Virus record (IMG/VR): IMGVR_UViG_3300022925_000209
Coordinates: 1 to 21,705 of that record
Source: a virus
DNA length: 21,705 bases
Reading direction: 5' to 3' (one strand)
The translations under genes were made by a program, and so were the position numbers. The notes beneath the pieces are model-generated. The model saw nothing but the letters and a program-made list of their open reading frames with translations, did no database searches and was not told where the DNA came from. This document shows positions 2-19,692 of this stretch, one piece after another; the stretch's first letter is position 1, and every line of letters starts with the position of its first letter.

Positions 2-169
2 ACCTTTCTATGTGAATACTGCACAATACCAGTACTTATCTCTCAGCCTGCAACTGTATTAATGTATACATGCAAGGGGCCAAAATCCCCAAAATTTCTA
101 AGGGAACTAGGCCCATCCTTAAAATTCACAAGACTATGCAGAGAATGTGGGGATCACTTCGATGTCTAG
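2..169 (+). CDS. Partial zinc-ribbon-like small protein (3' end)
   Basis: The frame is open from the left edge for 55 codons and stops at TAG 167-169. It has no start in the window, so the gene begins upstream (or at the internal ATG at 62). The visible part has cysteine pairs CEYC (visible residues 4-7) and CREC (46-49) plus a lone Cys at 24, the pattern of a small zinc ribbon. Its last 8 bases overlap the primase ATG at 162, the same tight stop/start arrangement seen through the rest of this strand, which supports both this gene and that primase start. Function is unknown. Fifty-five open codons alone could arise by chance, so the call rests on the Cys pairs and the overlap. Confidence 0.5.
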   Translation, partial: TFLCEYCTIPVLISQPATVLMYTCKGPKSPKFLRELGPSLKFTRLCRECGDHFDV

Positions 170-941
170 TTATCGTGAGCAGATAGAATGGGTTAAAACC
201 TTATCAATCAAAGAAGGCAGTCGGCTAACAACCGACTGTCCTTTCTGTGGTGGTAAGAACAAATTCACGCTAGATAAGTTTGATGGTAAGCTTGTCTGGA
301 ATTGTTATAGAGCATCCTGCAATGTTAAAGGCGCACATTCAGGTGAGCGTAATCTTGATGCGGTAAAGGCTAGACTATCTGGTTCTGCTATCAAGAGACA
401 TAAGCCCGAACCTAAACCTATTCCAACAATCACAACGAATGTATCAAACAGTGATACAGCTTTATCTTACCTTAAAAAGGTTAACAGTTATGATGCATTC
501 CTTAGAGGCGATATAAAGATTCGCTATGCCCCTAAAGAAAGTAGGGTACTTTTCTATAACAAAGACAGTACAGGCGCTGTAGGACGTTCTATGAGGCCTG
601 TACGTTCTAAGTGGTGGAGTTACGGTGAACTATCTAAAGGAATACATGTAGGTAACGGTGATCATGCAATCCTGGTCGAAGATGTAGCTTCTGCATGTGC
701 GGTATCAAACGTAACAGGTCTTACTGGTGTTGCGCTATTAGGTACGAACATTACTAAAAGCATTAAAAGAGCCATTAGTAATTATAAAAAAGTAACATTA
801 GTTCTTGACAATGACGCAAGTACTAAGGCAGTGTCTCTGTTAGGTGTACTTGGGTATAACTCCCAGGTACGATTGACTCTGGTAGATTTAAAGTATCTAT
901 CACCCGACAAGATAAGCGAGGTTATTAAATATGGAAAATAA
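162..941 (+). CDS. DNA primase, T7 gp4-like zinc finger and TOPRIM, no helicase domain
   Basis: Stand-alone primase that makes RNA primers for lagging-strand synthesis. With the ATG at 162 it is 259 aa. The N-terminal zinc finger uses C26, C29, C48 and C53 (CPFC near residue 26, then CYRASC). A TOPRIM fold follows, with the acidic motif LVED (E173) and LVLDND (D216, D218) that bind metal. A GTG at 147 would add five residues. I prefer 162 because GGGG lies 9 bases upstream and because the preceding gene ends just inside it. T7 joins primase and helicase in one protein; here the helicase is a separate gene at 1473, as in many marine podoviruses. Confidence 0.9.
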   Translation: MSSYREQIEWVKTLSIKEGSRLTTDCPFCGGKNKFTLDKFDGKLVWNCYRASCNVKGAHSGERNLDAVKARLSGSAIKRHKPEPKPIPTITTNVSNSDTALSYLKKVNSYDAFLRGDIKIRYAPKESRVLFYNKDSTGAVGRSMRPVRSKWWSYGELSKGIHVGNGDHAILVEDVASACAVSNVTGLTGVALLGTNITKSIKRAISNYKKVTLVLDNDASTKAVSLLGVLGYNSQVRLTLVDLKYLSPDKISEVIKYGK

Positions 942-1472: not shown

Positions 1473-2693
1473 ATGGAAATACAATTATTAAAAACATTAT
1501 TAACTAAAGACTGTTACAACAGCACAAAACCCCGGCTGAGAAGATCAATATTTTCAGATGAAACGGGAAGCCTATACAATCTTCTAGGCGAAACCCATAG
1601 CAAGTACGATACGGATATAACTCCAGATGACCTCTACGGAATCTGGTTATCTGAAAACCCTGTCGCCACTACTTCAGAGATTGGTGATTTTCGTGATACG
1701 ATTGATGAACTCAAGTATGCAGATCCTATCACCCCTGACATAGCTACTGACATAATTGAAAACCTCTGGCGGCGTGAGATAGGCAGAGATATTGCCAATC
1801 TTGGTCTTAATATGTCTGAGGGTGACCTGTCAGCTATGACACGCCTGCAGTCATTACTTGAGCGCACCAAAGACAGCTACATGCCTGACAACTTTGGTGA
1901 ACCAACTACTGACGATATTTATGAACTACTAGCGGAAACCTCAGATGAAAACCGCTGGAAGTTTAACATAGAAACGCTTGCCCGTAACGTCTATGGCATT
2001 GGGCCATCGGAGTTTGGGATAGTATTTGCCCGTCCTGAAACAGGTAAGTCAGCTTTTGTTATCAGCATAGTTGCAGGCCCTGGCGGCTTTTGCCAACAAG
2101 GTGCAAAGGTTCTCTACTTAGGCAACGAAGAGAAAACTACCCGTACTAAACTGAGGGCAATACAAGCCTGTTCAGGTATGACCCGTGAGCAGATAGCCGA
2201 CAATCCTGATCTGGCTATGAGTAAATACCTGTCGATCAAAGACCGCCTGATAATGAAAGATGTTCAGGAGTGGGATCTAGATACGATCAACTCTTATTGC
2301 GAGAAGATTAAGCCTGATATTATAGTTGTAGACCAAGCAGACAAGATTAATATTGCTGGTAACTATAACGCCAGCCATGAGCGTATTCGTGAACTTTATA
2401 GGTCACTACGGGAACTAGCTAAGAGACATGATGCTGCCCTGCTAGGTGTAAGCCAAGCTTCTGCAGATGCAGAGGGCCGTACCCGTATCGACTTCTCTAT
2501 GCTTGAAGGCTCAAAGACAGGTAAGGCCGCAGAGGCAGATCTTATCATAGGTATTGGTAAGCATAATGGTGATGGTGACGATAACTCACCTAACCATGAT
2601 CGTTTTCTAAACATCAGTAAGAACAAACTCAGCGGGTATCACGGCTGCGTTCAATGCGTAATTCTACCAGAGGTGAGCCGCTATGTTGAGTGA
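1473..2693 (+). CDS. Replicative DNA helicase, RecA-fold (DnaB/T7 gp4 C-terminal type)
   Basis: Ring-type 5'-3' helicase that unwinds DNA ahead of the polymerase. In 406 aa, residues 1-150 form an alpha-helical N-terminal region without the primase zinc finger or TOPRIM. The RecA-like ATPase follows from about 160: Walker A ARPETGKS (186-193, K192), Walker B IIVVDQ (283-288, D287), and a sensor-like strand LLGVSQ (323-328, Q328). NEE at 218-220 sits where the catalytic Glu is expected. AAGGGAGAG lies upstream as ribosome-binding site. It works with the primase at 162 and heads the operon with the polymerase. Confidence 0.9.
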   Translation: MEIQLLKTLLTKDCYNSTKPRLRRSIFSDETGSLYNLLGETHSKYDTDITPDDLYGIWLSENPVATTSEIGDFRDTIDELKYADPITPDIATDIIENLWRREIGRDIANLGLNMSEGDLSAMTRLQSLLERTKDSYMPDNFGEPTTDDIYELLAETSDENRWKFNIETLARNVYGIGPSEFGIVFARPETGKSAFVISIVAGPGGFCQQGAKVLYLGNEEKTTRTKLRAIQACSGMTREQIADNPDLAMSKYLSIKDRLIMKDVQEWDLDTINSYCEKIKPDIIVVDQADKINIAGNYNASHERIRELYRSLRELAKRHDAALLGVSQASADAEGRTRIDFSMLEGSKTGKAAEADLIIGIGKHNGDGDDNSPNHDRFLNISKNKLSGYHGCVQCVILPEVSRYVE

Positions 2694-2862
2694 AGATGAT
2701 TTAAAAGAATTCTACGAACTTCTTGAGAAGAATAAAGCTGAGTATAAGAAAACCTCATCCCCTGAGATTAAGGATCTTTTGGATGAACAGTTTGATTTGA
2801 TCAACGCCTTTATTCTCAATCAAACCAAGATTGCCGCAAAGCTGGCAGGCTTCAAAGTATGA
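2683..2862 (+). CDS. Small acidic helical hypothetical protein, 59 aa
   Basis: An ATG inside the end of the helicase gene (11-base overlap) opens a 59-codon frame whose TGA overlaps the polymerase ATG (ATGA at 2859-2862). AGAGGTGAG upstream is a strong ribosome-binding site. The product is predicted to be almost all helix, rich in Glu, Lys, Asp and Leu, with few aromatic residues. It fills exactly the gap between helicase and polymerase, which is the main reason to call it real. It might be a small replisome accessory protein, but no family is recognised. Confidence 0.8.
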   Translation: MLSEDDLKEFYELLEKNKAEYKKTSSPEIKDLLDEQFDLINAFILNQTKIAAKLAGFKV

Positions 2863-4997
2863 GAGTCTTAGTACTCGACTTAGAAACCACCGTTAATAAA
2901 ATTGATGGCAAGATTGATAATAGTCCTTTCAATCCACAAAATAAGTGTGTCTCAGCGCACTTTGGTTTTCTTGGTTGGGATACGGTAGATGAGGTGACTA
3001 ACCTTGTCTTCCATCATAATGAAATAGAAATCCCTGATAGCCGAAAAGCGTTAGAACATTCGTTAGAACAGGCTGACGTGCTAGTAGCACACAACGCCAA
3101 GTTTGATGTTGCTTGGCTTATTGCAATGGGCTTCGACATACCAGAAACCGTATTCTGCACAATGCTTTGCGAATATGTACTGGCAAAGGGCCAGAGGCAG
3201 GAATTATCGCTTAAAGCTACAGCGGAACGCAGGGATGTAACCCGCAAGAAATCCGATCTGGTAGATGAACTTTTTAAGAGTGGTACGGGCTTTGAAGCAA
3301 TGCCACTGGATACTGTTCTAGAATATGCAGAAGCTGATGTTATCTCCTGCGCTGAAATATATCTGGCCCAACAGAATGACCTAGCCCATGAAAGCAACCA
3401 ATCGTTAAGTGAAACGATTAAGCTTACAAACGAAATGCTTCTGTTTCTTGTAGAGATAGAAGGCAACGGCATTAAAGTCGATCTGGATATACTTGCAGGG
3501 ATCAAAGAAGAGTTTCTTGCAGAACAAGCTGAATTAACCAAGCGCCTAGAAGAAATTGTTGAGCAAGTGATGGGCGATACCGTCATAAATCTCAATAGCG
3601 GTCAGGATATGACACGGGTTGTCTACAGCCGTGAGGTTATTGATCGTGATGATCATCAACAGGTCTGGAATATAGGCACAGATAGCAACAACAAGCCTCT
3701 ATTCCCGCCTAGAATGAACAGATCACAGTTTAACGCTGCGGTGCGGGCTACTACACGGGTTGTATATAAAACCAATGCTATTTGTTGTGATGCCTGTGAT
3801 GGTAGGGCGTATATACAGAAGTATAAACAGAAGACCCGTCAAAAGAACGGTAAGAAGTATCGTGTTCAAGGCGAAGCCTACAAGAATCTGTCTAAATGCC
3901 CTTCCTGTGCGGGTGTTGGTGCATTCTATCAGCCTAATGGTAAGGTAGCAGGCTTACGTCTTAACCCTACCATGCCTTCTGATGCTTCTATCAATGGATT
4001 TAAGACCGACAAGGTTACCATACAGCGTTTAATCTCGCAGGCAGAGGCCAAGGGCAATGATACCGCCGTTGAGTTCCTGACTAAGAGCAGTAGGCTTAAC
4101 GCAGTCAGTGTGTATTTAGATTCTTTCGTTAAGGGGTTTGAAAATTGGACACGGGCAGATGGTATTCTGCATACTAATTTTACCCAGCATGTCACGGCAA
4201 CAGGCCGACTATCTAGTACTTCGCCAAATATGCAGAACGCCCCAAAGCGTGGGTTTCCTGTGCGTAAGGCTGTCGTTAGTAGATTTGAAAACGGAATCAT
4301 CGTTGAAAGTGATTTCAGTTCTGTTGAATTCGTTTTGGCTGGGGAATTATCCCGTGACCCCCAGATCATATCTGATGTTAAGACAGGCAAGGATCTACAC
4401 AAACAGACTGCATCTATCATCTACCAGTGCAGTGAAGATGAAGTGACAAAAGACCGCCGCCAGGCGTCGAAGAAATTCAGTTTTGCGCCGATTTATGGGG
4501 GATTAGGCGCTGGAGAGGCAGATCACGTCCGATCATATTTTTCAACTTTTTTTGAGATTTATGAAGGTCTGGGTGCGTATCACCGTAGGCTTGCAGACGG
4601 AGTTCTAAAGAACGGTATTGTTCAGATTCCATCGGGAAGACAGTTCTTTTGGCCTAACGTAGTTCGTAAGCGTGGGGGCCGCACCAGCCACTACACACAG
4701 ATCGTAAATTACCCTGTGCAATCCTCTGCGGCAGATTTGATGCTACTGTCCTGTGTTCGTGCGCTTCGCAAGTTCAGAGAACTTAACCTACGTTCTAAAC
4801 TGATACTCACCGTCCACGACTCAATTGTCTCAGATGTCTATCCCGGCGAACTTGAGAAAGTTAAAGAAGCCCTGACATGGGCTATGGTGGACGTAATCAA
4901 AGAGGCTGAACAGCGTTGGAATTACACCTTCGCCCTGCCCTTAGAAATTGAAATATCAGGCGGCAAAAATTGGCTGGATCAAGTCGAATATGATTGA
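2859..4997 (+). CDS. Family A DNA polymerase with 3'-5' exonuclease and DnaJ-type zinc finger insertion
   Basis: Replicative polymerase, 712 aa. Exonuclease motifs: Exo I LDLET (D7, E9), Exo II HNAKFD (D83), Exo III YAEAD (Y156, D160). Polymerase motifs: A ESDFSSVE (D485, E490), B R534...K538...F542...Y546-G, C TVHDS (H653, D654, S655). Between them, at residues 309-354, lie two CxxCxG-type repeats (C310/C313 and C347/C350; the second reads CPSCAGVG) spaced like half of a DnaJ central zinc-finger domain. This insertion is known, as I recall, from HMO-2011-type phages. Phe at the E. coli 762 position (F542) is usually linked with lytic phages. Motif C has Ser in place of the usual Glu; some other phage enzymes share this. 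It overlaps the preceding 59-aa gene by ATGA. Confidence 0.95.
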   Translation: MRVLVLDLETTVNKIDGKIDNSPFNPQNKCVSAHFGFLGWDTVDEVTNLVFHHNEIEIPDSRKALEHSLEQADVLVAHNAKFDVAWLIAMGFDIPETVFCTMLCEYVLAKGQRQELSLKATAERRDVTRKKSDLVDELFKSGTGFEAMPLDTVLEYAEADVISCAEIYLAQQNDLAHESNQSLSETIKLTNEMLLFLVEIEGNGIKVDLDILAGIKEEFLAEQAELTKRLEEIVEQVMGDTVINLNSGQDMTRVVYSREVIDRDDHQQVWNIGTDSNNKPLFPPRMNRSQFNAAVRATTRVVYKTNAICCDACDGRAYIQKYKQKTRQKNGKKYRVQGEAYKNLSKCPSCAGVGAFYQPNGKVAGLRLNPTMPSDASINGFKTDKVTIQRLISQAEAKGNDTAVEFLTKSSRLNAVSVYLDSFVKGFENWTRADGILHTNFTQHVTATGRLSSTSPNMQNAPKRGFPVRKAVVSRFENGIIVESDFSSVEFVLAGELSRDPQIISDVKTGKDLHKQTASIIYQCSEDEVTKDRRQASKKFSFAPIYGGLGAGEADHVRSYFSTFFEIYEGLGAYHRRLADGVLKNGIVQIPSGRQFFWPNVVRKRGGRTSHYTQIVNYPVQSSAADLMLLSCVRALRKFRELNLRSKLILTVHDSIVSDVYPGELEKVKEALTWAMVDVIKEAEQRWNYTFALPLEIEISGGKNWLDQVEYD

Positions 4998-5051: not shown

Positions 5052-5882
5052 ATGAACGATATAACAACAGTTGATGGCTACGAGTTAGAACAATTCTCCG
5101 ATATTTTAGGCTCCGCAAGGAGCGGGGATTCTGGTGACGGTCTAGTTCGTGTACCAAAATTTGATCACCAGCATTCACCAGATGATGATGATGGAAACGT
5201 AATGCCCCGTGGTGAGTTTCGGCTCCATATGCCCGAAGGGATTGTCTACGCAAAGAAGCCTTTATTCAGGCCTCTTATGGCCCACATTCAGTATTATTTG
5301 TGGGAAGACGATAAGCTTACAAAATCACTGGTCTGTAATAATTTGCGGGATGAAGCCCGTGATACGGCTGGCGGTATAGCGTGTGGAATGCCTGAGTGGG
5401 AAGTTCGTGCCGAAGATAAAGAATTACGCCAGAAATACAAAGACTGCCAACGGCGTGTGGTTCGTGGATTGGTTACGATGGACGGTCATACCTTAGACGG
5501 TTCGCCTGTTAAAATTGAAAACCAACCAGCTATTTACTTTGGTAAAGGCAGCACGAATTACGGCGGGTTTTTTAATGAATATATGAATGTTCTGCCAAAA
5601 GGCGCACGTCTTCACGATTACCAATCTGAAATGTCTACTGAGCGCATGAAGGTTGGTGAAACAGTATTCTTTAAGATCCACTGGAAGCCGCTTCTTAACA
5701 ACAAGCTTGCGCTTGATCGTGATGCTTTTGAAACAATGAAGGTTTTTGCACAAACCATTCGTGACGAAAACAAATACATCGATAAAGAACATTTTGCGAA
5801 GATGAAGCAGGGCAGCCTCGATACCAAGGCCATCAAAGCTTTGGGCGAAAGTCTTGACGATGATTTTGAAGACGTAGCATGA
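5052..5882 (+). CDS. Hypothetical replication protein, candidate ssDNA-binding protein
   Basis: 276 aa, not a family I can name with confidence. What suggests a single-stranded DNA-binding role is its place between polymerase and exonuclease and its strongly acidic C-terminal tail (ESLDDDFEDVA), a usual protein-docking tail in phage SSBs. The centre is basic, aromatic and strand-rich (RRVVRGLVTMDG near 134, then IYFGKGSTNYGGFF at 161-174). An acidic patch DDDD sits at 44-47. AAAGAAAGG precedes the start. It is the first gene after the second copy of the intergenic motif, consistent with a need for high expression. A bacterial-type OB fold is not obvious, so the function is inference from context and tail. 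Confidence 0.5.
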   Translation: MNDITTVDGYELEQFSDILGSARSGDSGDGLVRVPKFDHQHSPDDDDGNVMPRGEFRLHMPEGIVYAKKPLFRPLMAHIQYYLWEDDKLTKSLVCNNLRDEARDTAGGIACGMPEWEVRAEDKELRQKYKDCQRRVVRGLVTMDGHTLDGSPVKIENQPAIYFGKGSTNYGGFFNEYMNVLPKGARLHDYQSEMSTERMKVGETVFFKIHWKPLLNNKLALDRDAFETMKVFAQTIRDENKYIDKEHFAKMKQGSLDTKAIKALGESLDDDFEDVA

Positions 5883-14100: not shown

Positions 14101-16580
14101 TACTTTAATACCCCGTAAGTTTTAGACCAGAAATCTGTTAAATCCTTATCGCTTACACCAGGATTTTCTTCCCTAGCACGGGATAAGAAATTTTCTAAAG
14201 TAGGTTTTCCTGATAACCATGAGAATGCGTCTGCCAACCCATTATCATTTGCATAAAGACCTGTTGATTTTCCGTAACCTTTAAATAGGTTTTGATCACG
14301 CCGCTGTAACATAATAACAGCATCATCTTCGTTGAAGTCATTTATCAACCTCTGGGTCTTTTTAACGACTGCTTCTGCTTGACTTTTCAGGTTAGCACTA
14401 AAGGTTGTATAGGTGTTACCTTGATCCAATATGGCAAGTGCTTTTTCAAAGTCTTTGTTAGATAGTCCTTGCCCTGATTGTCCTAGAGAACTTGCTGCAA
14501 AGGTGAACGCCAGTTTAATCTTCTCCGCTTGAAACAAGGCAGCTTTTCTTGTGGTTTCGTCTAATCCGGGGATACTATTTAGATATTGAGTTACTGCGCT
14601 ATCAATACTTGTCTCAATATCTGATAACGATCTAGTTTCGTTAAACGTATCTATGATAGTTCCAACTTCTACGCCTACTCTTTTTATAAATGGAAGTACT
14701 TTACCACCAACTGTAGTTAAGATAGCAGGATTACCCCCCATTTCAGGGTTAACCAAATCATCAAGTTTCTTTGCTGATTCCAGCGTAGTAGCCATACCTA
14801 TACGCTGCTTTTTAAGAGGCTGGATAGTAGATTGGTTAATCTTAATTACACCATCGTATATATCATCTTGTAGATCCAAGTTTATAACCTGTTCTCCCTC
14901 AACAGGAACACGGGTTTTAGTAGGATCATTAAGATCAACATACTGATTATTTTCATTGAGTTTAGCAGTAGTACTTTCAATTTCTCCCGTTTCAGATTTA
15001 TACTTAATTAGGAAAGTTTCGCTTCCTGGTAAAATCTTAGGTGCTTGAGCATTCCTGTTATTAAGAAGTTCTTGTAACTTTACAATATTTTGAGGTGCAG
15101 TGCCTTCCGTATTTATTATAGAAGTAATAGTAGCGGTATCTACATCGTCATAGTCTGCAATATTAAAATCATTTATTTCTTGTGCTGCAGCGGATGCGCT
15201 TTTCTGTACTCTTACCCTATCAATGTCTGCCTTATAATTAGAATCTGTAACGGTAGACGATAGAATTTCAAGAACATCATCACTTAGTTTATCTAAATCG
15301 ACTATACTTAGAGGCTTATCTGCAGATATTGCCTTGCCGTATTCTCTTACTCTCTTAGCACCATCGGCATCACCAGCATCTTCAAGTTCTTTGGCGTTGC
15401 CTTCAAAGTTATCTTTAGTAATTGTACTCCATTCGATTGGTTCCTTGATTTCCTTTTGTGCCGCTATTTCTGCATCAATAATCTTTAGGTCATCATCTTT
15501 AGCGCCCAAAGATTTAGCAACCCGCCGCTTCTGTTCCAAAGCAGCTTTATCCAATCCTACAAAAGAGTCAGGCTCTACTATAGTTTCCCACGGTTTAAGG
15601 TTTTTCTCTTCAGCATCCACAAGTGCTTTAATAGCAACAAATTCGTCTGTATTCGTTTCCTTTAATAACTCTAAGGTCTGAAGCTGGTTTTTTGCAGCTT
15701 CTAAATCACCAGCAAGAGAATTAATTGTAGATTTTAAACTTCTTCCTTTAAGCAGTGCTTCTCTGTCTTCCATTATTTTTAAGAGATCCGCATCTAAGGT
15801 AACATTGTCGCCCTTGAGTTCATCTTTATATAACTCAATGTCTTCTAATGTTTTTAATCTTGTGTAATCGAGTTTAGCAGGGGTTTCCCCGAATGGAGTG
15901 ATTTTAATTCCACGCTTTTCTATTTCCACAGGTTCAAGGGATGCATCATTTTCACCTTCAGGGCCAAGAATAGCATCCATCTGCTTTTCCATGCCCTTTT
16001 GCATACTACCTTCGCCTGATTTAGCTAAATCATCTACAGAGTTTGCAATTTGGTCTGCCGCCTCATTATCATCTCTACTATCAGCATCATAATAAGCATT
16101 TAATGTACTTTTAGAAGCAACATCCAAATCTACATCACTACGCTGTAGCAGCGGCCCCTGTAATTCACGGCTCTCAGTTTCAGTTGTAAATTCCAGCCTT
16201 CCGCTTTCCACCATATTCTGAGTAGCAGTCATAACTGCACCAACATCCCCATCCATAAGGGTAAGTTGCTGTTGGAAATAATTTACCGCCTGCGGGTTAT
16301 TGTTTGTACCAGAAAAAGTTTCAGATAAGATCAGGGCATTCTTTTTATTCTTCTGTGCCTTGTCTTCTGCTTTACGTTGCCGTTCAGCCGCAGCCCTTCG
16401 TGCCGCTCTTTCCTCTTTAGCTTTAATCTTTGCTTCTTCCTTTTCATCAGCCGCTTGCTGCATCCAGCTTTTAGCAATGATGTCTGCGCCCTTTGAGAAG
16501 GCTAAACCAAATGAATCTTCGTTTTTGTAATAGTTCTTTTTACCAGAAGAAACCGCCGCTTGTGTATCACGCCAACCCAT
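14100..16580 (-). CDS. Large helical virion-associated protein, 826 aa
   Basis: No family recognised. Residues 43-80 form a highly charged Lys/Glu/Ala/Arg helix (coiled-coil-like). The rest is mainly acidic helical segments with many Asp, Lys and Gln, and lacks cysteine-rich or enzyme motifs. AGAGGAG lies 8 bases before the ATG. It overlaps the 185-aa gene by 14 bases and the 1133-aa gene by 1. The pair of giant proteins at the end of the late operon resembles internal core/ejection protein pairs of podoviruses; that role is inferred from context and size only. Confidence 0.6.
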   Translation of the reverse strand: MGWRDTQAAVSSGKKNYYKNEDSFGLAFSKGADIIAKSWMQQAADEKEEAKIKAKEERAARRAAAERQRKAEDKAQKNKKNALILSETFSGTNNNPQAVNYFQQQLTLMDGDVGAVMTATQNMVESGRLEFTTETESRELQGPLLQRSDVDLDVASKSTLNAYYDADSRDDNEAADQIANSVDDLAKSGEGSMQKGMEKQMDAILGPEGENDASLEPVEIEKRGIKITPFGETPAKLDYTRLKTLEDIELYKDELKGDNVTLDADLLKIMEDREALLKGRSLKSTINSLAGDLEAAKNQLQTLELLKETNTDEFVAIKALVDAEEKNLKPWETIVEPDSFVGLDKAALEQKRRVAKSLGAKDDDLKIIDAEIAAQKEIKEPIEWSTITKDNFEGNAKELEDAGDADGAKRVREYGKAISADKPLSIVDLDKLSDDVLEILSSTVTDSNYKADIDRVRVQKSASAAAQEINDFNIADYDDVDTATITSIINTEGTAPQNIVKLQELLNNRNAQAPKILPGSETFLIKYKSETGEIESTTAKLNENNQYVDLNDPTKTRVPVEGEQVINLDLQDDIYDGVIKINQSTIQPLKKQRIGMATTLESAKKLDDLVNPEMGGNPAILTTVGGKVLPFIKRVGVEVGTIIDTFNETRSLSDIETSIDSAVTQYLNSIPGLDETTRKAALFQAEKIKLAFTFAASSLGQSGQGLSNKDFEKALAILDQGNTYTTFSANLKSQAEAVVKKTQRLINDFNEDDAVIMLQRRDQNLFKGYGKSTGLYANDNGLADAFSWLSGKPTLENFLSRAREENPGVSDKDLTDFWSKTYGVLK

Positions 16581-17124: not shown

Positions 17125-17290
17125 CTACGATCTCCTCATCATTGTCTTCTGACAACATCTCTTCTTCAAGTTCATCGAAGTATGCAGGGGTATGAAATAT
17201 TCCCTCTTCGCTTAATTCATTGGTAGCGGCGGGTATTTTACCGTTCATAAAAGCCTTAATCGACTTCTTCACTGCGTCTTCAAACTTCAT
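17111..17290 (-). CDS. Small acidic protein, 59 aa
   Basis: Fills the gap between the S74-domain protein and the 185-aa gene. Its ATG overlaps the upstream TGA (ATGA) and its TGA lies 14 bases inside the next gene. A basic N-terminal helix (MKFEDAVKKSIKAFMNGKI) is followed by an acidic C-terminal half (DELEEEMLSEDNDEEIVDED). This division is seen in small scaffolding or adaptor proteins, but no family is recognised. The double overlap is the main evidence that it is real. Confidence 0.75.
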   Translation of the reverse strand: MKFEDAVKKSIKAFMNGKIPAATNELSEEGIFHTPAYFDELEEEMLSEDNDEEIVDEDV

Positions 17291-19692
17291 TGGATTTCTC
17301 CGTAGTTAACTGTGAGATAGCCATGAGAACCTACAGAAACAGCATTTGGATATTTTTTCTGAACTTGTTGGGCTATAACCCCGTAAGCAGGAAACTTATC
17401 TGCCCCTATACGCTTGGCTTCTTTGTTCCATTTCCAGCTATAAATCTTTATGCCTTTTTCAGTATTCAGGTACTGAATGTCTGTCTTTAGTCGTTCATCA
17501 GAGGGCCACCCTCGACCAGAACTGATCCACGCAGCACCTAGCGTTATGAGGCCATCCATAATGCCATTACCGCCGCTGCTTTGTCCTGCTTGCGCTCTAA
17601 TCTCTGCGCCTAATATAGTGGCGTCACGATCAGCTTCTGCATTCCATCCCTTGAAGATATAATCCAAAAGATTGTCCACACGATCCCACAGTCGGGTCAT
17701 TGATTCTGTAGACAGATCAAACGCATTTTTAACATCTAGAGTTGCCGCCTCAAATTCCATTTCTGTATTTGTAGTGGCTACTGTTTGTCTCCATTTGGCA
17801 TTAGCAAGATCCAAGTTGTATTGCATATCTGCATAAAACTCTTGGCGAGACTGCTCTAGCTTAGAATTAAACTCACGGTTGTCGTTAATTTCGCCAGTAT
17901 TAAATCGCTTCATCTGATTGATTTGTTCAGAGTTCTGCAAAGATATCTGTGCATTCATATTGTCATAATATTTCTGCATATCGTTGGCTTGCTCTGCACC
18001 AAACAAACGGGCTGCGTTAATAGCAGACTGATCGTTAAAGATGGCATCAACCATTGCCTGTGTATTCACAACTTCAGCCTGTTGCTCATTAGTCAGGTTA
18101 GCCAAATCCATTTCCAAGAAGGCTTTAGCATTCTGTACCGCAGCGGCCTGACGTGCATCTAGATTTGCCACTTCAAACTTAGCCAGTACAGCGGCTTTAT
18201 TAATGATAGCTTCTTGGCGGTTATCTAGGTTCTTAGTTGTAAGGGTTTGGAAAAACGATGCTTCTTTTTCTGCAATACCAAGGGTTGCTTCCATGATGGC
18301 ATTACTCATGGCTGCGGTCATAGCGGTTCCAGAGATACCAGAGAAAGCCATTGTCTTTGCAACGTCACGGGAAAGTGATTGTGCCCAAGGCGGTATTACA
18401 GGGTTGCCATTACTATCTTTAAATTCGGCAGAGATAATTTCCATCTGCCCTAGAATAGTAGCCTTACTATCGGTGTAATTACCTTCACCCAGCTTCTGGG
18501 CTAACAGCTTACCCGCTACTGTAGAGGTGTCGATGATATTGCTGATGTTTTGTGTAGCAAAGTCGTTGAGGGCTTCGCCTGTTACGCTAACTGTACCGTC
18601 TTCATTAACGCCTGTAGCAGCGCCTGTCATATCAATCTGAGCAGCGTCTACTAGGTTCTCATCACGAATTTCACCTGTGGCTGCATCGACCGTTGTCGCA
18701 TCGGTTCCTAGCTGATCTGCGCTTGTACTGGCATCATACGTTTCTGCGCCAGGATTAACTACACCATCTACCGTAGCTGCATCACCTGTAGTTGCTACTG
18801 CAACAGTAGGACTATCACCTAAAAGGTAGTTGGGGTTAGTAGGGTCTAGGAGGGTTCCCGCAGTCTCAGGGTCAAGGTTAGGCAGATTGTCTACAAGACT
18901 TGCACCGTTGGCCTTTAGCCATCCCGCAGGATCATCTAGGATAGCCTGTATCTGTTCATTGCTTGTAGCCATACCAGCTTCTTCAGCCATCTTGATAATG
19001 GTTTCTGCGCCCTTAGTGGTATCATTACTTCCATCATCCTCAGTAGCATTATCTTCTGCTTCTTGTAGGATAGCCGCAGCTTGATCGTCATCACCGTTAT
19101 CACGGGCGTCTTGGGCCATTTTCTCATAACCAGATGTTGATTGATCATATCCTTCGTCGCCAGGATATTTACCAGAGGCATCTTTTCGTAAGAAGTCTTG
19201 TACCTGACCTGCTTCGTTTACTTCTACTTGGTAAGGAAGCCCTAGAAAGTTGTAGGAATACTGCATACCTGTTTCTTTATTTTCATATACCTGCTTACCG
19301 CCGTACACGCCTTTTTCTTGGGTTTCTGGGTCAAGGCCATTAGCCCACCCCGCTATAGCCCCAATAACACCTACAGGAGAAGCGAAGCCTAGAACCTTAT
19401 TAATACCTGACGGTGCAGCACCTGTTACTTTTTCAGGTTCAGCATTAGGTGTATTAGACGCAGGGCTGTAATCAGAGTTATTTGTATTAGTACTATTTGC
19501 AGATCCTGAATATGTGCCGCCTTCGCCTATATCAGAGGATGGTACAACAACATTATTTGATGGGTTATTATCGTCATCGTCATACACTAATGTACCGCCT
19601 ACATAGGATGCACCATCATTAGGAGTAAATGTATTGGCTACGCTTTCCGTAAAGCTATTGCCGCCGCCGAATGTGTCTGACCAAAAGCCCAT
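17287..19692 (-). CDS. Virion/tail protein with C-terminal S74 intramolecular chaperone domain, 801 aa
   Basis: Domain order: a Gly/Asn/Ser/Asp-rich N-terminal region (1-100), a hydrophobic segment (100-118), a long Asp/Thr/Ala region (200-380), three exact-length 22-residue helical repeats (487-552), further Gln/Asn-rich helix (555-650), and a C-terminal peptidase S74 domain (731-801). The S74 domain opens with SDERLKTDI and contains AYGVIAQQVQKKYPNAV. In tail fibres and spikes this domain assists trimer formation and then cuts itself off at the Ser (here S731). The N-terminal body is not fibre-like beta structure, so the protein may be a helical tail or core component that uses the chaperone. 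The start overlaps the o-spanin stop (TAATG). Confidence 0.8.
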   Translation of the reverse strand: MGFWSDTFGGGNSFTESVANTFTPNDGASYVGGTLVYDDDDNNPSNNVVVPSSDIGEGGTYSGSANSTNTNNSDYSPASNTPNAEPEKVTGAAPSGINKVLGFASPVGVIGAIAGWANGLDPETQEKGVYGGKQVYENKETGMQYSYNFLGLPYQVEVNEAGQVQDFLRKDASGKYPGDEGYDQSTSGYEKMAQDARDNGDDDQAAAILQEAEDNATEDDGSNDTTKGAETIIKMAEEAGMATSNEQIQAILDDPAGWLKANGASLVDNLPNLDPETAGTLLDPTNPNYLLGDSPTVAVATTGDAATVDGVVNPGAETYDASTSADQLGTDATTVDAATGEIRDENLVDAAQIDMTGAATGVNEDGTVSVTGEALNDFATQNISNIIDTSTVAGKLLAQKLGEGNYTDSKATILGQMEIISAEFKDSNGNPVIPPWAQSLSRDVAKTMAFSGISGTAMTAAMSNAIMEATLGIAEKEASFFQTLTTKNLDNRQEAIINKAAVLAKFEVANLDARQAAAVQNAKAFLEMDLANLTNEQQAEVVNTQAMVDAIFNDQSAINAARLFGAEQANDMQKYYDNMNAQISLQNSEQINQMKRFNTGEINDNREFNSKLEQSRQEFYADMQYNLDLANAKWRQTVATTNTEMEFEAATLDVKNAFDLSTESMTRLWDRVDNLLDYIFKGWNAEADRDATILGAEIRAQAGQSSGGNGIMDGLITLGAAWISSGRGWPSDERLKTDIQYLNTEKGIKIYSWKWNKEAKRIGADKFPAYGVIAQQVQKKYPNAVSVGSHGYLTVNYGEIQ
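18037..18234 (-). repeat. Three 22-residue helical repeats in the 801-aa protein
   Basis: Residues 487-508, 509-530 and 531-552 share the frame xNLxxxQxAxVxNxxAxxxxxx without insertions. Units start KNLDNRQEAI, ANLDARQAAA and ANLTNEQQAE. This period suits a regular helical or coiled-coil stalk. Similar NL-x-x-x-Q repeats occur, as I recall, in other marine podovirus virion proteins. Confidence 0.75.

Follow-up and report, generated by a model that had tools for sequence, protein, structure and literature searches.

DNA polymerases of the HMO-2011 type carry a partial DnaJ central domain with two CXXCXGXG motifs, described as placed between domains, and this partial domain serves to recognise the HMO-2011 group; passages of three reports state this and credit Kang 2013 for the polymerase architecture (PMC9038755, PMC6918029, PMC8528129). 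Here we analyzed such a polymerase and its zinc-motif insert in positions 1 to 21,705 of IMG/VR record IMGVR_UViG_3300022925_000209, hereafter the window, that is, the whole 21.7 kb stretch of DNA under analysis. A previous reading of these letters without database searches (the sequence-only reading) had attributed the family to HMO-2011-type marine phages, and this architecture is indeed in print, so that the existence of a zinc-motif polymerase in the group is not new. What alignments and predicted models add is a corrected location of the insert, at the tip of the thumb, and a probable single-stranded-DNA-binding protein (SSB), previously unrecognised, as a candidate partner. A literature search returned no account of the function of the insert, of its thumb position or of a gp32-like protein in HMO-2011-type phages, which is no proof of absence. 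The features discussed are collected in Table 1.

Table 1. Features of the window, with positions in nucleotides and residues numbered in the polymerase.
Feature	Position	Strand	Basis or remark
Family A DNA polymerase, HMO-2011 type, 712 amino acids (aa)	2859..4997	+	3'-5' exonuclease plus polymerase
Thumb helix, residues 243-257, equivalent to Klenow 578-592, directly before insert	3585..3629	+	MAFFT alignment with E. coli PolA
Thumb-tip insertion, residues 258-376, replacing Klenow ~593-601	3630..3986	+	MAFFT alignment; absent in Klenow, L273 and L356
Predicted zinc unit, residues 303-363	3765..3947	+	Model secondary structure; best PDB match of profile 1exk
First CxxC, C310 and C313	3786..3797	+	Invariant in alignments A1, A2 and A5
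Basic hairpin between Cys pairs, 33 residues, net +9	3798..3896	+	12 residues longer than in most relatives
Second CxxC, C347 and C350	3897..3908	+	Invariant in alignments A1, A2 and A5
Probable T4 gp32-like SSB, 276 aa, acidic C-terminal tail	5052..5882	+	Predicted fold
DnaB-like replicative helicase, possible partner	1473..2693	+	PF03796 6.5e-13, phrog_19 6e-56
Toprim primase, possible partner	147..941	+	phrog_47 2.8e-13; Pfam Toprim matches under cut-off

The polymerase and its conserved cysteine pairs

Pfam scans of the window polymerase located the exonuclease PF01612 at residues 52-172 and the polymerase domain PF00476 at 380-706 (profile 57-380 of 381). Full-length alignment, the two motifs and its grouping with isolates identify the protein as HMO-2011 type; the closest isolate is Roseobacter phage CRP-235 (65% identity, full length), followed by Roseobacter phages CRP-738 and CRP-3 (60% each) and CRP-212 (57%), the identity with the HMO-2011 polymerase being 38% over 99%. 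A tree of polymerases, in which 88 of 127 rows were kept after removing 30 that were too short and 9 without the motif, joined the window to L014 (support 100/99) and then both to CRP-235 (L016, 99/86), with bootstrap values not settled. Like other HMO-2011-type polymerases, the protein is built of exonuclease, zinc-motif insert and polymerase, has two CxxCxGxG-type motifs, sits in a similar gene order, resembling that of CRP-235, and nests in the clade with CRP-235; it differs in a linker of 33 instead of 21 residues between the cysteine pairs, and in a first motif that lacks the last Gly. An AlphaFold2 model of the full-length protein (69 sequences; mean predicted local distance difference test, pLDDT, 90.8; predicted template modelling score 0.82) superposed on Bst Pol I 4dqi with Z 35.4 over 548 aligned residues and a root-mean-square deviation (rmsd) of 2.7.

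The sequence-only reading had placed two CxxC pairs within residues 309-354 (3783-3920), and C310/C313 and C347/C350 were both recovered in the open reading frame (ORF). As it had stated, the second motif is a full CxxCxGxG (CPSCAGVG); the first reads CDACDGRA, that is, CxxCxG with Ala in place of the last Gly, and C309 is an additional cysteine missing from most relatives. Deviations from the strict form, in these cases in the second motif, also occur in the accepted isolates CRP-345, CRP-207, CRP-2 and CRP-603.

Relatives were gathered from four viral scans and from phage records, and in 261 loci a polymerase ORF of 550 aa or more matched the family profile. Among them 244 matched the profile end to end (231 from IMG/VR, 11 phage isolates, the window and its copy L001), and every one of these full-length polymerases has both CxxC pairs, separated by 21 (172 loci), 33 (63) or 34 (9) residues. 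Many of the 244 are near-identical; dereplication at 90% identity left 87 representatives, and all 87 keep the four cysteines. The other 17 loci comprise 15 that are truncated by contig ends, with the four cysteines in 15 of 15, and two Autographiviridae outgroups (L027 and L028) that have no such cysteines; eight further loci, that of ICP2 (L026) included, lacked a matching ORF of 550 aa. An absence of the cysteines from close relatives had been named beforehand as evidence that would speak against the finger, and they turned out to be conserved throughout the 244. None of the peptide patterns used in the searches lies between the cysteines, and the scans favour insert-bearing members because one pattern per scan (e.g. 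DDHQQVWN) sits in the front part of the insert. When the insert of the window was searched against 50,697 phage records, 12 records matched, all of HMO-2011 type; the insert of HMO-2011 itself found its own type in 12 records plus 12 weak others, with expectation values (E) from 0.6 to 1. HMO-2011-type polymerases were also seen on contigs of metagenome-assembled genomes labelled Euryarchaeota, Maricaulis and Rhodobiaceae (L269, L270 and L274, respectively), which may be virus contigs binned with hosts.

Position of the insert within the thumb

Both the published descriptions and the sequence-only reading set the insert between the exonuclease and polymerase domains, a placement that we reject, since the alignments to Klenow resume within the thumb on both of its sides. 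In the MAFFT alignment with E. coli PolA, window residue 257 stands opposite Klenow 592 and residue 377 opposite Klenow 602, and about 119 residues thus stand for some nine Klenow residues at the thumb tip. Starting at the exonuclease, a profile of the polymerases aligned with Klenow up to and including the thumb helix containing FNLSSTKQLQTILFE, then broke off, and took up again in a second stretch well past the insert; the model shows a helix at 248-256, in the thumb segment just ahead of it. As judged from these alignments, the zinc-motif insert splits the thumb subdomain at its tip.

The late start of the Pfam polymerase match is explained by this split. In eight HMO-type proteins the PF00476 match begins at profile positions 49-63 (three of them having a second stretch), whereas that of T7 polymerase begins at 29, because the insert of T7 precedes the thumb helix and the HMO insert follows it; the two inserts therefore flank one helix. 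An overlay of the HMO insert on the T7 loop produced by MAFFT was discarded as an alignment artefact, as the FNPSS-type helix of T7 follows its loop while the HMO equivalent precedes the insert; a T7-type insertion, before that helix, is thus not what the HMO insert displays, and the Pfam coordinates agree with separate placement. The comparison with the T7 thumb loop drawn in the sequence-only reading was nevertheless apt, the insert itself being in the thumb tip: like the thioredoxin-binding loop of T7, it is carried at the tip of a family A polymerase thumb and is a candidate dock for a partner, and it differs in lying on the other side of the short thumb helix and in its CxxC pairs, which the T7 loop does not have.

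A further scan was seeded with more distant polymerases, and the best 80 loci of a longer list were kept, 77 of which had a polymerase ORF of 300 aa or more. The four-Cys pattern was present in 28 of the 77 and absent from 49, one of which (L344) has no thumb. Three states were distinguished at the thumb-tip site: the HMO-type zinc insert, a zinc-less insert, often with a motif like YKTGxRKGExKxK (e.g. L312-L325; also L277), and no insert (L375, L379, L356 and L273). Zinc-less inserts at the HMO insertion site occur in many other phage family A polymerases, among them those of ICP2 and two Autographiviridae. The inserts of ICP2, Friunavirus D2, L277 and L312-L325 share with the HMO type the point of insertion and a Lys/Gly-rich composition, and differ in having no CxxC pairs and other residues around the site. 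In its annotation the ICP2 polymerase (L026, 953-3046) is divided into two neighbouring genes, with the break after the TGRLSS/PNLQN region.

On the tree, two label changes suffice for the 60 zinc rows, where shuffled labels need 24.1 on average; the intruder within the zinc clade is L356, insert-less and on a long branch. The zinc unit perhaps arose once, the second label change being owed to L356. This family A polymerase near the zinc clade (L356, 2947-4740), having no thumb insert, is a possible natural empty-site comparator.

A DnaJ-like, putative zinc unit and its basic hairpin

In the model, the zinc unit is made up of a strand (303-309), C310/C313, a hairpin (322-329/332-340), C347/C350 and a closing strand (355-363). 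A profile of the relatives with 21-residue linkers, compared with four target sequences only, aligned to residues 156-193 of E. coli DnaJ, a segment in which motif 2 begins at C161 and motif 3 at C183. When a profile of the zinc unit (35 rows) was run against 177,635 PDB sequences, the first match was the zinc domain of E. coli DnaJ, 1exk (whole-sequence E 2.9e-05; best single stretch 0.0013, again motifs 2-3), followed by weaker matches to phage antiterminator Q (0.034), an Anti-TRAP homologue (0.05) and a DnaJ subfamily A member (0.072); the window insert as a single sequence gave chance matches only, the best at E 0.79. By profile comparison, then, the zinc unit matches the inner motif pair of DnaJ. 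Antiterminator Q (7ubj), the second PDB match, is likewise a phage protein that carries two DnaJ-like knuckles.

The Pfam family of the DnaJ central domain, PF00684, was matched by 49 of 69 family members at E <= 0.001 and by the window at E 1.1, probably because its linker is 12 residues longer. Its cut-off of 32.7 bits was reached neither by the window (10.1) nor by any of the seven relatives whose scores are given (HMO-2011, 29.0; HTVC033P, 26.3). The earlier label of DnaJ-type finger thus stands as regards similarity to motifs 2-3, and falls as regards a full DnaJ domain, only two of the four motifs being present. CxxCxGxG knuckles and the profile match are what the insert has in common with PF00684; two motifs instead of four, one expected zinc site instead of two, and no J domain are what set it apart. 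The inner two motifs of DnaJ share one zinc, and because of this one Cys4 zinc site is expected in the HMO-type insert, in line with the earlier proposal that two motifs would make one site. Anti-TRAP is a short protein with two DnaJ-type knuckles and one zinc; the likeness to its family PF15777 is weak and its context different. Of the 69 polymerase family members, 23 match PF15777 at E <= 10, with 0.0012 as the best value, and HMO-2011 itself matches at 2.5e-05, below cut-off.

Two readings of the site depend on this kinship or on the cysteines. One is a chaperone link, in which, as with DnaJ in lambda, the DnaJ-like half domain would bring the DnaK system of the host to the phage replisome; besides the similarity to motifs 2-3, a passage of PMC9038755 mentions DnaJ in lambda replication beside this domain. 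We judge it very improbable, given that Pfam scans of the window polymerase returned no J-domain match, that half of the motifs are missing and the PF00684 cut-off is unreached in the window and the seven relatives, and that similar knuckles occur, weakly, in Anti-TRAP and phage Q proteins. The other is a redox or metal sensor, a Cys4 site losing its zinc upon oxidation and thereby tuning polymerase activity. It takes up the four invariant cysteines within an inserted thumb-tip unit; these are its sole evidence, a structural zinc accounts for them equally well, and we give this reading hardly any credence.

The sequence-only reading had also counted about 30 basic residues between the pairs; the stretch is indeed rich in them, but only 11 of its 33 residues are Lys or Arg. 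The linker has a net charge of +9 in a polymerase whose overall charge is -8, and across the 87 representatives it ranges from +4 to +11, always positive. Windows of equal length elsewhere in the same protein are seldom as basic (median 0.3%, at most 10%).

Zinc might alternatively be a purely structural clamp that stabilises a thumb-tip loop, the insert giving replication nothing beyond folding stability. The lower conservation of the unit speaks for such a clamp: the mean frequency of the major residue is 0.51 over 303-363 (0.59 without the 12 columns missing in most relatives) against 0.70 over 385-712, and the length of the hairpin differs by 12-13 residues among relatives. However, the basic hairpin is retained in 87 of 87 representatives and a different basic insert occupies the same site in other phage polymerases, which together suggest selection for a thumb-tip function; a mere clamp seems to us unlikely.

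The downstream gene and a proposed role for the hairpin

The ORF directly downstream of the polymerase (5052-5882) matched no Pfam or PHROG family and is annotated as 'hypothetical protein' in isolates. In 190 of the 261 loci the polymerase is followed by an ORF of 200 aa or more, any loci that stop at a contig edge being counted among the others, and all 179 neighbours tested from IMG/VR and the window joined one similarity network. The predicted model of the neighbour (pLDDT 84.4) aligned best with the core of T4 gp32 (1gpc; Z 7.7, 170 residues, rmsd 4.0) and with RB69 gp32 (7.6), together with a chain of the PhiC31 integrase-excision factor complex (7.6) and two more gp32 entries (6.8 and 6.4); the next row, baculovirus LEF-3, dropped to 3.6. 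A search of BFVD with the model gave 24 rows at E <= 0.001, mostly uncharacterised or unnamed, one of which, at rank 19, is named single-stranded DNA-binding protein. The last 20 residues of the neighbour have a median charge of -7 (range -11 to 0; negative in 188 of 189 loci and zero in one), compared with -1 for the preceding 20 residues, -2 for the polymerase tails and -1 for the tail of the following gene (152 loci). Like T4 and RB69 gp32, the neighbour has an acidic C-terminal tail, and its predicted core aligns with theirs at Z below 8; it differs from them in sequence (9-11% identity) and in the His-Cys3 zinc site, which is not conserved: taking the residues of that site from the relevant passage of PMC3012046, only one Cys, C111, is invariant in 59 neighbour rows. 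Judging from the predicted fold and the tail, this gene probably encodes the SSB of HMO-2011-type phages.

The SSB family was found in 11 of 12 records with the zinc insert, the miss being L360, a 16.9 kb fragment, versus none of 18 zinc-less records; two additional zinc records also carry it (2/2), and the 51 kb record of L356 had no match (0/1). This co-occurrence is only consistent with a partnership.

Two side observations concern the same family. The neighbour model had a weak match in BFVD to a Microbacterium phage recombination directionality factor (E 0.011), and gp32-like folds may be related to those of the matched PhiC31 integrase-excision factor complex chain and of this directionality factor. 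In the L172 record (G026, 14142-14952) the SSB-family match comes in two overlapping pieces, which may point to a frameshift or a sequencing error.

As the duplex emerges from the active site of a family A polymerase, the tip of the thumb is in contact with it, and it is at this tip that T7 polymerase gains processivity; deletion of about residues 590-613 of the Klenow thumb tip reportedly causes a loss of processivity. We propose, giving it about an even chance of being correct, that the HMO-type insert is a zinc-clamped basic hairpin that holds on to DNA and serves as a dock for replisome partners, of which the SSB tail is a probable one, with a function like that of the T7 loop at a placement of its own. 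The two knuckles, equivalents of DnaJ motifs 2 and 3, would bind one zinc and so fix the base of the strongly basic beta-hairpin; the hairpin would lengthen the thumb so that it covers the duplex lying behind the active site, and would slow dissociation of the polymerase; and acidic partners would dock on its basic patch, the C-terminal tail of the gp32-like SSB being the most plausible of them. In this way the insert would fill a role similar to that of the thioredoxin-binding loop with no host factor involved. Zinc binding, DNA grip, SSB docking and the gain in processivity are steps that we infer.

There are precedents for parts of this proposal. The effect of thioredoxin and the 71-residue T7 loop are stated in a passage of PMC3997047, whose reference list includes a title according to which that loop binds helicase-primase, SSB and thioredoxin. 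A part of PMC10061031 describes, for a family A polymerase of C. perfringens, an SSB predicted to bind the tip of its thumb, likened to T7/thioredoxin, and a passage of PMC3012046 has the acidic C-terminal domain of gp32 binding other replication proteins.

Several points weigh against the proposal. The gp32 partners named in that passage are primase, helicase loader and RNase H, not polymerase (PMC3012046). Acidic SSB tails are usual and have many partners, and a tail alone does not point to the hairpin. The gp32 assignment itself is open to doubt: all gp32 rows have Z below 8, and a Foldseek search of the neighbour returned nothing from the PDB at E <= 0.001, with kinesin and fluorescent proteins as its top rows. 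The records used for co-occurrence were chosen mostly for length and are confounded by shared descent. As for the hairpin, it is strictly the most basic stretch of its length in only 29 of the 87 representatives, and in the worst case 10% of the windows are as basic. Our literature search found no measurement of zinc, DNA binding or processivity.

The dock might instead serve the primase or the DnaB-like helicase, the zinc unit taking over primers or coupling synthesis to unwinding. Primase, helicase, polymerase and SSB genes are clustered in the window, and the title cited in PMC3997047 lists helicase-primase among the ligands of the T7 loop; the C-terminus of the window helicase, however, has no acidic tail, and we regard such a contact as distinctly improbable.

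Scans of the window gave no tRNA and no Rfam match at the gathering score, and a single CxxC motif scan of its ORFs of at least 60 aa gave no match for thioredoxin-like proteins. On the minus strand, 17287-19692 encodes an 801-aa protein; its C-terminal Peptidase_S74 chaperone of endosialidase (PF13884, 4e-10) makes it a probable component of a tail or fibre.

Returning to the zinc-clamped hairpin, a broader and rather doubtful extension of the proposal is that the insert is a self-contained processivity and docking module, rigidified by zinc, which replaces a host factor such as the thioredoxin of T7 and clamps the acidic tail of the gp32-like SSB, thumb-tip inserts being general and the zinc version having arisen perhaps once. 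The mapping to the thumb tip, together with a probable SSB next door, makes the role of this domain in a widespread phage polymerase directly testable. If the proposal is true, the insert would be a small processivity module based on zinc, which might be transplanted into other family A polymerases; under the broader extension, thumb-tip inserts would be a general phage route to processivity in these enzymes, with the zinc version belonging to the HMO-2011 group.

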